43,458 bases of DNA from Jannaschia seosinensis (GTDB taxonomy: Bacteria > Pseudomonadota > Alphaproteobacteria > Rhodobacterales > Rhodobacteraceae). Numbering within the stretch: the first letter of the stretch is position 1; the number at the start of each line of letters is the position of its first letter. Both the position numbers and the translations under genes were made by a program. Positions 3,371-30,088 of the stretch are shown here, one piece after another. Location of the stretch: positions 1-43,458 of the forward strand of contig NZ_CYPR01000001.1 in assembly GCF_001408515.1 (NCBI RefSeq). Direction: 5' to 3'. The notes under the pieces were generated by a model. It was given only the letters and a program-made list of their open reading frames with translations, was not told the origin of the DNA and searched no databases.

Positions 3371-3750
3371 TGTGCGGGGGGCCGGGCGGCCGCGGAAGGC
3401 GACTTCCGAGGAAAGTCCGGACTCCACGAAGCGACGGTGCCGGGTAACGCCCGGACGGCGAAAGCCGATGGAAAGCGCCACAGAAAACAAACCACCGGGG
3501 ATCCGTCCCCGGCCAGGGTGAAACGGTGGGGTAAGAGCCCACCGGGGAGGCGGCAACGTCTCCCGCACGGCAAGCCCCACCGGGAGCAATGCCGAATAGG
3601 GACCGCGCGCGTCTGCGACGGCGCAGGGACGCTTCGTCCCGGCGGTCCGGGTTGGCAGCTCGAGGCCGCGAAGCAATTCGCGGTCCAGATGAATGGTCGC
3701 CACCGAAGGGAACCTTCGGGACAAAATCCGGCTTACAGGCCCCCCGCACA
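3371..3750 (+). ncRNA. rnpB: RNase P RNA (class A, alphaproteobacterial type)
   Basis: This is the catalytic RNA of ribonuclease P, which removes 5' leaders from tRNA precursors. The signature GAGGAAAGTCCGG is at about 3409-3421, followed by the ACAGAAAAC segment (about 3480), the conserved GGGTAAGAGCCCACCGG region (about 3528), and the 3' ATCCGGCTTACAGGC end. The ends are fixed by a perfect P1 helix: TGTGCGGGGG at 3371-3380 pairs with CCCCCGCACA at 3741-3750. The length of about 380 nt suits a bacterial class A RNA. It stands between the amidase and the PAS-like gene and has its own promoter. Confidence 0.96.
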
Positions 3751-3770
3751 TCTCTGAGACGGAACCATTC

Positions 3771-26989: not shown

Positions 26990-28561
26990 CTAGCCTGCAT
27001 CCTTGTAGCTGATTTCCCGCGCGTCCTTGCCGCCCTTTTCGCGCCGCACGAGCAGGCGGTTGAGCGCGTTCACATAGGCCCGCACGCTCGCCACCACCGT
27101 ATCCGTATCCGCCGACTGGCCCGAGACGATGCGGCCGTCCTCCTCCATCCGCACGGTCACGGTCGCCTGCGCGTCGGTGCCTTCGGTCACGGCCGACACC
27201 TGATAGAGCTGCAGCCGCGCCGAATGGGAGACCAGTGCCTTGACCGCATTGAACGCCGCATCCACCGGCCCGTCGCCGGTCGCCTCGGAGGAGCGGGCCT
27301 CGCCGTCGATATCGAGCGTTACGGCAGCTTCCTGCGGGCCGTCGGTGCCGCAGACCACGCGCACGCGCTCAACCTTGATGCGGTCTTCGCCGGTGCGCTC
27401 CTCGTCCTGCATCAGGGCGATCAGGTCTTCGTCGTAGATCTCCTTCTTGCGGTCGGCCAGCGCCTTGAACCGCACGAAGACATCCGCCAGCTGATTGTCG
27501 GCCAGCGAGTAGCCCAGCTCCTTGAGCTTCGAGCGCAGGGCGGCGCGGCCCGAATGCTTCCCCATCACCAGCGAGGTCTCGGTCAGGCCCACATCCTCGG
27601 GGCGCATGATCTCGAAGGTTTCGGCGTTCTTGAGCATCCCGTCCTGATGGATGCCCGATTCGTGGGCAAAGGCGTTCTTGCCGACGATGGCCTTGTTGAA
27701 CTGCACCGGGAAACCGGAGACCGAGGCCACGCGGCGCGAAATGGCCATGAGCTTCGTCGAATCCACCCGCGTCTCGTAGGGCATGATGTCGTGACGCACC
27801 TTCAGCGCCATCACGACCTCCTCCAGCGCGGTGTTGCCCGCCCGCTCGCCCAAGCCGTTGATCGTGCATTCGATCTGACGCGCGCCGCCCTCGACCGCCG
27901 CCAGCGCGTTGGCCGTCGCCATGCCGAGGTCGTTGTGGCAATGCGTGGCGAAGACGACATCGCGTGCGCCCGGCACTTCGGCGATCAGGCGCCGGATCAG
28001 GTCCGCGCTTTCGACCGGGGCGGTATAGCCGACCGTGTCGGGGATGTTGATCGTCGTGGCCCCGGCGCGGATCGCGATCTCGACCACGCGGGCGAGGTAA
28101 TCCCACTCCGTCCGCGTCGCGTCCATCGGCGACCATTGCACGTCGTCGCACAGGTCGCGCGCATGGCTGACGGTGTCGTGGATGCGGTCGGCCATCTCAT
28201 CCATCGTCAGGTTCGGGATGGCGCGGTGCAAGGGCGAAGTGCCGATGAAGGTGTGGATGCGCGGCTTGCCGGCATGCCGCACCGCTTCCCAGCAGCGGTC
28301 GATATCTTTGAGATTGGCGCGCGCCAGACCGCAGATCGTGGAGTCGCGACTGCGCTCCGCTATGGCCTTCACGGCAGCGAAGTCGCCCTCGGACGCGATC
28401 GGGAAGCCCGCCTCAATCACATCCACGCCCATCTCGTCGAGCATCGCGGCGATCTCGAGCTTTTCGTCATGCGTCATGGTCGCGCCGGGCGATTGTTCGC
28501 CGTCACGCAGCGTGGTGTCGAAGATGATGACGCGGTTTTCGGGGCGGGTCGGGGAGCTCAT
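26990..28561 (-). CDS. leuA: 2-isopropylmalate synthase
   Basis: The 523-residue protein is a complete LeuA: HMGL-like catalytic domain with TTLRDGEQSPGATM (residues about 16-29), the HCHNDLGMATANALA metal-binding loop (about 205), GLGERAGNTALEEV, and a C-terminal LeuA allosteric domain (about 390-500) that normally mediates leucine feedback. It condenses acetyl-CoA with 2-oxoisovalerate, the first committed step of leucine synthesis. The other leu genes are not adjacent. The ATG at 28561 follows AGGA with 7-base spacing. Upstream is a Leu-rich leader peptide and alternative hairpins, indicating leucine-dependent attenuation. Confidence 0.98.
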   Translation of the reverse strand: MSSPTRPENRVIIFDTTLRDGEQSPGATMTHDEKLEIAAMLDEMGVDVIEAGFPIASEGDFAAVKAIAERSRDSTICGLARANLKDIDRCWEAVRHAGKPRIHTFIGTSPLHRAIPNLTMDEMADRIHDTVSHARDLCDDVQWSPMDATRTEWDYLARVVEIAIRAGATTINIPDTVGYTAPVESADLIRRLIAEVPGARDVVFATHCHNDLGMATANALAAVEGGARQIECTINGLGERAGNTALEEVVMALKVRHDIMPYETRVDSTKLMAISRRVASVSGFPVQFNKAIVGKNAFAHESGIHQDGMLKNAETFEIMRPEDVGLTETSLVMGKHSGRAALRSKLKELGYSLADNQLADVFVRFKALADRKKEIYDEDLIALMQDEERTGEDRIKVERVRVVCGTDGPQEAAVTLDIDGEARSSEATGDGPVDAAFNAVKALVSHSARLQLYQVSAVTEGTDAQATVTVRMEEDGRIVSGQSADTDTVVASVRAYVNALNRLLVRREKGGKDAREISYKDAG

Positions 28562-28592
28562 GGGCTGGTCCTGTCTGTCTGGAGGTTTCTTC

Positions 28593-28640
28593 CGGCGCTG
28601 ATCACTCCCGAGCGGTCGCGCCGAGTGGCACGCTCAGGAG
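28593..28640 (-). promoter_or_regulatory. leuA attenuator region with alternative hairpins
   Basis: In the minus-strand RNA, CUCCUGAGCG (28640-28631, containing the leader stop codon) can pair with CGCUCGGGAG (28614-28605), 10 pairs with one wobble. A competing stem joins CGGCGC (28623-28618) with GCGCCG (28598-28593), whose 5' arm lies in the loop of the first hairpin. The two stems interleave and cannot both form. A ribosome at the leader stop would mask the first arm and free the second stem. No long U run follows, so termination may be weak or the effect may be on the leuA ribosome site. Confidence 0.5.
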
Positions 28641-28678
28641 CGGCTAAGAAGAAGGTCCAGGATCAGGTTCGCCGTCAT
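28634..28678 (-). CDS. leuL: Leucine-rich leader peptide of leuA
   Basis: The 14-codon ORF encodes MTANLILDLLLSRS: five of fourteen residues are Leu, with three in a row (CTT CTT CTT) six codons from the end. It ends 72 bases before leuA, within alternative hairpins. This is the layout of a classical attenuation leader in which leucyl-tRNA shortage stalls ribosomes at the Leu codons. No ribosome site precedes the ATG, but a -10 box ends 7 bases before it, so the transcript probably begins at the ATG itself. The symbol is given by analogy with the enteric leader; the sequence itself is unrelated. Confidence 0.7.
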   Translation of the reverse strand: MTANLILDLLLSRS

Positions 28679-28685
28679 GAGAGGA

Positions 28686-28713
28686 ATGATACGCAAAGAT
28701 GCGGTGATGTGAA
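28686..28713 (-). promoter_or_regulatory. leuA leader promoter, predicted leaderless
   Basis: On the minus strand TTCACA (28713-28708) and TATCAT (28691-28686) are separated by 16 bases, both near consensus. The A of the leader peptide ATG (28678) is 8 bases past the -10 box, the normal start-site position. Confidence 0.6.
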
Positions 28714-28913
28714 CCCCGAAAATCGCGTTGATTTTCCCCGGCGTTGGCATCCGCCGAAGACACTGCAATCCGCTCGCCCTGACGTGTCCGGTGCTAAGCT
28801 GCAGCTAGCGTTTGGCGGCTCAAACCTTTATCCCGGATAATTCACGAGAAGGCGGCGGAGGTGGCGTAACCGTCTGAAACTCTGTATTTTTTGGTTATCG
28901 ACGCCAAAGATTC
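28714..28913. other. Gap between leuA promoter and IS4 element
   Basis: No gene is recognised in these 200 bases. GC content is lower toward the right end, with a TTTTTT run near 28888. The sequence marks the left flank of the IS4 insertion; its original neighbour has probably been lost, since the right flank is a truncated cueR-like gene. Confidence 0.4.
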
Positions 28914-30088
28914 CACACTACACGACACAGTGCTGGCTGAGGGCGGCTGGATGGATTCAACTGGACGACTCCGACCAAGGAAACATCCGATGCTTCACCA
29001 CGCCATCTCCGCCCTCACGAATATCCTGCGTCCAGATCTCGACTTGAGCAAGAGCCGTCTGGAGACGCTTTGCATGATCGTCATCGGCATGGTCAGCGCG
29101 CGCAGCGTGAACCTCGGCCATCTTGCCTGCGAACGACCGGGATCGGCCCTGACCTCGTCAACATACCGTCGGTTGCAACGCTTCTTCCAGCACGTCCATC
29201 TCGACGAGGACTGGTCGCTCCCGCTTCTGGTCCGGCTGTTGGGCCTGAACAAATCGTGGCTGCTCGCGCTCGACCGCACCAACTGGCAGATCGGCAAGAC
29301 CGAGGTGAACTTTCTCGTGCTCGCAGTCGTCACCCGTCGTTTCCGCGTCCCCCTGGTCTGGAGCCTGATCGAAGGCCGCGGGTGTTCCGACACCGACATG
29401 CGCATCGCCCTGATGGAGCGATATCTCGCGAATTTTCCCGCGACGACCATCCGTCTGCTGCTTGCCGATCGCGAGTTTGTCGGCGCAGGCTGGATGGAAT
29501 TTCTTAGTAAAAACAATATCCCCTTTGCTATCCGCGTAAGGGGAAATCTTCGCATTACGACCGAGGACGGTCACGACCTTACCTTGCGCGCAAGGCTGCG
29601 CCTGGCCCGCCGTGGCCGGGCTTTTCGCGCCCGCCTCGGCACACGCGAGGACGCAGCCGCCAGCAATACGCCGCTCCTGAACGTCGCGGCCAAGCCGCTC
29701 AAGGGAGAGTGGTTGATCGTGGTTACCAACGTCGCGCCGCGCACCGCGCTCGAAACCTACCGCAAACGTTGGGCGATCGAATGTCTGTTCGGCGATGCCA
29801 AGACGCGTGGCCTCAACCTCGAGGACACACGTCTCACCGATCCACGCAAACTCGCTCTGCTCATGTCCCTTGTCGCGCTTGCCCTTGCCTGGGCCGGTCG
29901 CGCCGCCGCAGACCTTCTCGGCAAGCGCGCGCCGCCGCGCAAAAGCCACGGCCACTACGCCAGATCCTGGTTTCGAACCGGCTTCGACCACATCCGAAGC
30001 CGCCTCAGAGCCGATCCCCTCGACGCCATCGCGTCGTGGCAGAGGATCAACCCAGAAGCACGAAAGCCCTGCGGAGTCGTGTAGTGTG
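28914..30088 (+). mobile_element. IS4-family insertion sequence
   Basis: CACACTACACGAC (28914-28926) and GTCGTGTAGTGTG (30076-30088) form perfect 13-base terminal inverted repeats around a full-length IS4-type transposase gene, giving an element of about 1175 bp. No matching target duplication is visible at the two ends (ATTC before, CGCC after), which suggests deletion or recombination after insertion. The right flank is a 5'-truncated cueR-like gene. Confidence 0.85.
28990..30084 (+). CDS. IS4-family transposase
   Basis: The 364-residue DDE transposase has the first Asp in WLLALDRTNWQIG, the second in IRLLLADREFVG, and the IS4 YREK signature Y-x2-R-x3-E-x6-K in YRKRWAIECLFGDAK, all intact. 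The enzyme cuts and pastes the surrounding element using its 13-bp ends. The ATG at 28990 follows AAGGAAAC at good spacing; the frame extends upstream into the left inverted repeat (28891), and 28951 is another option. The reading frame is complete, so the element could be active. Confidence 0.9.
   Translation: MLHHAISALTNILRPDLDLSKSRLETLCMIVIGMVSARSVNLGHLACERPGSALTSSTYRRLQRFFQHVHLDEDWSLPLLVRLLGLNKSWLLALDRTNWQIGKTEVNFLVLAVVTRRFRVPLVWSLIEGRGCSDTDMRIALMERYLANFPATTIRLLLADREFVGAGWMEFLSKNNIPFAIRVRGNLRITTEDGHDLTLRARLRLARRGRAFRARLGTREDAAASNTPLLNVAAKPLKGEWLIVVTNVAPRTALETYRKRWAIECLFGDAKTRGLNLEDTRLTDPRKLALLMSLVALALAWAGRAAADLLGKRAPPRKSHGHYARSWFRTGFDHIRSRLRADPLDAIASWQRINPEARKPCGVV

Follow-up and report, generated by a model that had tools for sequence, protein, structure and literature searches.

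The enterobacterial leu leader, which we take to be Rfam family RF00512, encodes a leader peptide with Leu codons before leuA and acts by terminator attenuation. The LEU element upstream of actinobacterial leuA, as presented in the accessible text of Seliverstov et al. 2005 (PMC1262725), has a leader with a Leu run, which forms a base stem with the Shine-Dalgarno box of leuA, and in addition a pseudoknot and an alternative hairpin. Mutants of its Leu codons in Streptomyces were not consistent with classical attenuation, and the authors favoured a protein ligand (PMC1262725, same portion). According to the available part of PMC8079986, S. lividans leuL1 (MRFGLLLLSCRGEGL, followed by the stop) precedes leuA, is leaderless like leuL2, trpL1 and trpL2, and has no typical Rho-independent terminator. 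In two corynebacteria the leuA leader carries four consecutive Leu (accessible parts of PMC4046766 and PMC5784534), and the ilvB leader of C. diphtheriae is described as leaderless (PMC5784534, same part), as is the leader peptide of trpL in the alphaproteobacterium S. meliloti (PMC10117765 and PMC7298713, available sections). We found no description of an alphaproteobacterial counterpart in a literature search that lay mostly outside subscription journals, where earlier reports are possible; the word "leuA" is absent from PMC4833913 and PMC2965389, papers on leader genes and attenuators.

Here we analysed a stretch of 43,458 nucleotides from Jannaschia seosinensis, referred to as the window, together with the leuA upstream regions of relatives. 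The features of the window that matter for the argument are the following.

28686 to 28713, minus strand: sigma-70-like promoter, with −35 TTCACA at 28713–28708, a 16-nt spacer and −10 TATCAT at 28691–28686 (promoter scan; −10 position kept in relatives)
28634 to 28678, minus strand: Leu-rich, apparently leaderless leader ORF, MTANLILDLLLSRS and stop (ORF reading and relatives)
28647 to 28653, minus strand: predicted base stem, 5′ side, UUCUUCU, inside three consecutive CTT codons (minimum-energy fold; native-versus-swapped test in relatives)
28631 to 28640, minus strand: P1, 5′ arm, CTCCTGAGCG, with the leader stop TGA inside (alignment of relatives)
28627 to 28630, minus strand: UGCC of the alternative inner hairpin, whose partner GGCG lies at 28622–28619 (alignment, RNAalifold)
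28618 to 28622, minus strand: putative pseudoknot, 5′ side, GGCGC, in the P1 loop (swap test and alignment)
28605 to 28614, minus strand: P1, 3′ arm, CGCTCGGGAG (P1 paired in 98.9% of cells, both-side changes at 3 pairs)
28594 to 28598, minus strand: putative pseudoknot, 3′ side, GCGCC (swap test and alignment)
28587 to 28593, minus strand: predicted base stem, 3′ side, GGAAGAA, 5′ of leuA (minimum-energy fold; best stem for locus L003)
28569 to 28572, minus strand: likely leuA Shine-Dalgarno AGGA, 8–11 nt 5′ of the ATG, both G paired in the predicted fold
26990 to 28561, minus strand: leuA, 2-isopropylmalate synthase (NCBIfam match, 841 bits)

By its architecture we class this as a LEU element, in what is apparently a new phylum for it. 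Compared with the LEU element in the accessible description, the window and its relatives share the Leu-run ORF 5′ of leuA, the base pairing of the Leu run to the Shine-Dalgarno region (though in Alphaproteobacteria often just upstream of it), a pseudoknot inside the base stem (a structure named by us, with comparative support), an alternative hairpin (the alphaproteobacterial inner hairpin is paired in 96.9% of alignment cells) and the lack of an obvious terminator. Unlike the actinobacterial element as described there, the alphaproteobacterial one usually has its stop codon in the 5′ arm of P1, and its single-ATG leaders mostly have 26–32 codons. The core GLLLLSC of leuL1, as given in the available text on S. 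lividans, is also present in alphaproteobacterial leaders, many of which end in GLLLLSRL or GLLLLSCP before the stop; leuL1 itself comes from another phylum and is shorter. The S. meliloti trpL/rnTrpL system is likewise an attenuator leader of an alphaproteobacterium whose transcript begins with AUG, but in the sections available it differs in its Trp codons, its transcription terminator and the release of a trans-acting sRNA and peptide (PMC10117765 and PMC7298713).

A conserved Leu-codon leader before leuA

The window leader has 14 codons, five of them Leu and three of these consecutive CTT; its ATG is at 28678 and its stop ends at 28634 on the minus strand, 72 nt from the leuA ATG (28561). 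ORF reading and the NCBIfam match to leuA thus bear out an earlier note, made from the sequence alone, that had placed a 14-codon ORF with five Leu codons and a CTT triplet ahead of leuA. Since a longer ORF in the same frame could start at a TTG at 28768, the choice of the ATG draws on the promoter and on relatives.

Upstream regions of leuA were gathered from 30 locus genomes (that of the window and 29 of the family), 80 named genomes and 80 further family genomes, giving 189 placeable regions of which 183 were unique. The rows dropped were L001 and L002, which had not been retrieved through leuA, L082, in which no start was located, and 6 duplicate regions. Upstream DNA was taken for 110 of the 148 matched family genomes (30 loci including the window's, 80 by coordinates), and three of the remaining matched genomes had only a partial leuA without its N terminus. 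In 158 of the 183 unique regions the 5′ arm of P1 contains a stop codon and no fewer than 8 of its 10 pairs can form; the commonest final three residues of these 158 leaders are SRL (56), TRL (18) and IRL (17). Statistics on leader starts were confined to leaders in which just one ATG lies in frame, picked blind to promoters; this excluded 83 of the 158 and left 75, among them L108 of the distant set. Counting back from the stop, Leu occupies codon −4 in all 75, codon −5 in 63, codon −6 in 73 and codon −7 in 65. The earlier note had named conservation of Leu codons in relatives as a check on its proposal of a Leu-sensing leader peptide; the conservation is present, and it supports the proposal. 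With 61 of the 75 leaders 26–32 codons long, that of the window is short. At some distance from the Leu run, 38 of the 75 leaders (e.g., L006, L014 and L015) have His-Ile at codons 6–7, and the DNA at +16 to +21 of the leaders conforms to CATATC at 68–81% per base; this may be a signal that helps leaderless initiation or the early phase of transcription.

Promoter and likely leaderless start

The window promoter matches the consensus at 10 of 12 positions, and its −10 box stops 7 nt short of the leader ATG; in the 701-base region scanned on both strands, 3 promoter-like sites were found against 0.2 expected in shuffles. The same spacing is seen in the relatives. In 70 of the 74 single-ATG leaders with sufficient upstream sequence, a −10-like hexamer ends 6–9 nt before the leader ATG (62 of these at 7–8 nt), and in the 45 nt examined 74 such hexamers fall in the 6–9 nt range and only 9 at other distances. 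The base at −1 is C in 88%. No AGGAGG-like site was seen before the window leader ATG, and Shine-Dalgarno matches of at least 4 precede leader ATGs in 4 of 75 cases against a shuffled mean of 4.3, which is no enrichment; before the leuA ATGs there are 27 of 75 against 12.4 shuffled. The leader start is therefore likely leaderless in the window and its relatives, and two claims of the earlier note, a transcription start at the leader's own ATG and a leader without a ribosome site, are supported at the level of promoter position and sequence comparison. The note also called classical attenuation with a leaderless leader an unusual combination; leaderless leader peptides are not unusual in themselves, to judge from the S. 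meliloti, S. lividans and C. diphtheriae cases, as far as the accessible texts cited above describe them.

In relatives the conserved −35 region, which spans −45 to −28 relative to the leader ATG, is T-rich (TT, C/T, TT) and is not TTGACA; perhaps these promoters form a class of their own, or an activator binds there. Directly 5′ of the window −35 box, at 28718–28736, lies an inverted repeat, GAAAATC-AACGC-GATTTTC, a possible operator or upstream terminator stem. About 200 bp upstream of the promoter is an IS4-family transposase gene (28914–30088) with perfect 13-bp inverted repeats at its ends (28914–28926 and 30076–30088).

Structure of the leader RNA

The 119-nt RNA that runs from the leader to leuA in the window has a predicted fold of −51.5 kcal/mol (z −4.4), and none of 200 shuffles was that low. 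In this fold, leader codons pair further with the leuA start region, beyond UUCUUCU/GGAAGAA. The inner loop hairpin (TGCC/GGCG) and the pseudoknot (GGCGC/GCGCC) are mutually exclusive. The earlier note had proposed two exclusive stems flanking the leader stop codon: alternative structures are indeed present, but the main stem, P1, contains the stop codon. In relatives, the leuA upstream regions show P1, the pseudoknot and the base stem.

Native and swapped partners were compared for both long-range helices. Over 145 sequences, 2000 permutations and the last 45 nt before leuA, the Leu run scored 16.55 with its own leuA-upstream partner and 13.24 with swapped partners (sd 0.21, highest 13.95); the pseudoknot partners scored 19.65 natively, 17.52 swapped (sd 0.20) and 13.07 shuffled. 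In an alignment of 130 sequences, A1, obtained by omitting 7 more distant rows from 137, the whole structure was paired in 91.0% of cells, with both sides changed in 80 cells against 29.6 shuffled (0 of 500 as high), a covariation of 0.133 against 0.090 (0 of 500) and both-side changes at 9 pairs against 6.7 (13 of 500 as high). These scores depend on a choice, because the base stem and the pseudoknot were entered as structures that we had named, a dependence that the swapped and slid controls offset in part; slid versions of the structure all scored below the native one. RNAalifold, run on the alignment, returned P1 and the inner hairpin only, neither the base stem nor the pseudoknot. P1 and its loop are very invariant. 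The pseudoknot pair 63–104 is CG in 110 rows and UA in 9. The pair involving column 21 is UA in 53 rows, AU in 25 and UG in 14, with 33 rows unpaired; since the stop occupies columns 31–33, column 21 is the third base of Leu codon −4, so a synonymous Leu-codon position covaries with the leuA upstream region. Comparison supports the leader and the position of its start, as well as P1, the pseudoknot and covariation in the base stem.

Pairing before a cupin-like first gene

In eight genomes (L007, L048, L060, L067, L235, L236, L197 and L200) a cupin-like gene of about 118 codons lies between the element and leuA, which suggests a leucine-related role for this small protein. The first gene product of L007 is a cupin (Pfam PF07883), the first genes of L048, L060, L067, L235 and L236 begin alike, and in these six the element sits 5′ of the cupin-like gene. 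When the last 30 nt before the cupin-like start codon were searched, wobble pairs counted, the Leu run formed stems of 9 bp in L007, L060 and L236, 7 bp in L067, 11 bp in L048 and 5 bp in L235, ending 5–10 nt before that start codon. Native pairing across the six operons was equalled or exceeded in 2 of 720 permutations. By eye, L197 and L200 show UUCUUAGC facing GCUAAGGA and UCCUAAUC facing GAUUAGGA, directly 5′ of the cupin-like start. Where leuA comes first, the best stem ends further upstream, 15–23 nt before the ATG in 90 of 145 genomes. We read this pairing of the Leu run near whichever start comes first as the strongest indication that the element acts on initiation of translation at the first gene.

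Distribution of the element

No Rfam 15 match at gathering score was obtained at the window element or in ten related loci; a search to E 10 over 28500–28900 gave four weak matches, all to unrelated families (best E 0.98). Elsewhere in the window, a bacterial RNase P RNA class A lies at 3374–3751 on the plus strand. Our covariance model, R1, finds a single match in the window's genome, at the leuA leader, and at E 0.01 or better it matched 45 of 53 loci outside its training set. For two of the unmatched loci, L174 and L178, the element lies further upstream, in L235 and L236; the other six are L079, L086, L087, L090, L092 and L112, of which L086, L087 and L112 pass a generic test of the arrangement. 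That test was passed by 22 of 27 distant alphaproteobacterial loci (L086–L112), against 0–2 of 27 in ten rounds of shuffles and 1 of 27 on the reverse strand. Class-wide and with strict filters, R1 found 39 of 387 genomes, with leuA in the same locus for 27 of the 30 hits fetched, a yield that, set beside the generic test, indicates that R1 is tuned to the family.

With filters off, R1 also matched actinobacterial sequences, ranking a Microbacterium leuA leader (MQFGLLLLSCRDESSD and stop) first at 27.2 bits (E 2.8e-6), ending exactly at the annotated leuA start, and a Nonomuraea leader second at 19.5 bits (E 7e-4), the next match scoring 14.2 bits. Part of these scores comes from the Leu codons held in common, and their calibration is rough. 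The Nonomuraea match, at which no gene is annotated, ends at the sole in-frame start codon so far in its open frame, and the protein match starts 39 nt earlier. When whole records were searched under strict filters, Microbacterium went unmatched and an unrelated Streptomyces site scored 21.1 bits with a partial match, so 19.5 bits alone is weak. Two leuA copies on Streptomyces plasmids (L226, L231) and a Cupriavidus locus (L233) showed no convincing element. Taken as sequence comparisons, the matches suggest a possible common descent with the actinobacterial sequences.

Discussion

The reading that we consider probable is that the alphaproteobacterial LEU element is a leaderless Leu-codon leader that governs how the leading gene of the leuA operon is translated. 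The transcript would begin at the leader ATG or 1–2 nt before it. When leucine is plentiful, ribosomes would pass through the leader and leave, and the unoccupied RNA would close P1, with the stop codon in it, the loop pseudoknot and the base stem; in the closed base stem the Leu codons would pair with the Shine-Dalgarno site of the first gene, or with sequence immediately 5′ of it, and lower initiation. When leucine is scarce, ribosomes would halt at the Leu codons and so occupy one strand of the base stem, and the start region would stay accessible. That ribosomes stall, which way the response runs, and that control falls on translation and not on transcription are what we infer. Since a ribosome at the leader stop codon also covers the Leu run, such a switch must be one of dwell time.

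Modelling of accessibility (137 sequences at 30 °C, without pseudoknots) lends this reading some support and also yields points against it. Shuffling the Leu segment raised the predicted accessibility of −26 to −5 from 0.48 to 0.55, the native value being lower in 77%, and barring the segment from pairing raised it by 0.16 on average, and by more than 0.1 in 64%. Against the reading, the protection predicted in leuA-first genomes falls on −28 to −19, 5′ of where a Shine-Dalgarno site usually lies, and −17 to −5 is modelled as about half open in the unoccupied fold; the modelled effect is strong over −28 to −19 and modest at the Shine-Dalgarno position. In the window, both G of the AGGA are paired in both modelled states, including the stall model, which argues against simple unmasking there. 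The base-stem helices are only 70–91% paired in A1, and pairing of the Leu run is weak (5 bp) in one of the eight cupin-first operons, L235; these too count against the reading, as do the RNAalifold result, which lacks base stem and pseudoknot, and the Streptomyces Leu-codon mutants and the protein ligand favoured in PMC1262725.

We nevertheless favour translational control, the main rival being Rho-dependent polarity, in which Rho would stop transcription if the leader RNA is free or if the folded element keeps the first gene from being translated, and stalling would prevent this. Such a device would fit the position of the element before a cupin-like gene upstream of leuA and the finding of no intrinsic terminator in the window or relatives, and Rho is suggested in the accessible part of PMC1262725 for other leaders that lack a terminator. 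A base-stem partner at the start region of the first gene would be superfluous in a device that acts purely on transcription, and we regard the Rho reading as unlikely. Classical attenuation, with an intrinsic terminator and antiterminator, was the mechanism proposed by the earlier note, and a leader peptide with a Leu run together with mutually exclusive helices would suit it. A scan of the window region found no intrinsic terminator, and in the 15 nt that follow P1 none of 156 sequences, the window included, has a stretch of 6 with at least 5 T; anywhere before leuA, at least 5 T in 6 occur in 5 of 156 and at least 5 T in 8 in 15 of 156. This would be classical attenuation without its terminator, and we reject it as highly improbable. 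The element might instead be a structured RNA that binds a protein or ligand, the peptide being incidental. P1 and its loop are perhaps more invariant than an attenuator needs, and the Streptomyces mutants, as reported in the accessible text of PMC1262725, did not fit attenuation, but codons −4 to −7 have kept their Leu and are read in frame towards a stop that lies within P1, and the spacing from promoter to leader ATG is conserved, which makes this improbable. Beyond the translational control that we favour, a broader proposal can be entertained tentatively, with more doubt than confidence: an ancient translational attenuator common to Alphaproteobacteria and Actinobacteria, in which the sensing codons would themselves form the anti-Shine-Dalgarno strand, pairing to the start region further downstream would dictate which synonymous Leu codon is used, loading would be leaderless (70S) and whichever gene comes first would be regulated.

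This work appears to extend a poorly understood element, whose leader-peptide mechanism was doubted by the authors of 2005, to Alphaproteobacteria, which include species tractable in the laboratory. It also provides a large set of apparently leaderless regulatory upstream ORFs and a motif with no gathering-score match in Rfam 15. Finally, the synonymous Leu codons that covary and the operons led by a cupin-like gene yield clear predictions by which control of translation can be told from control of transcription, and sensing through the peptide from binding of a protein.
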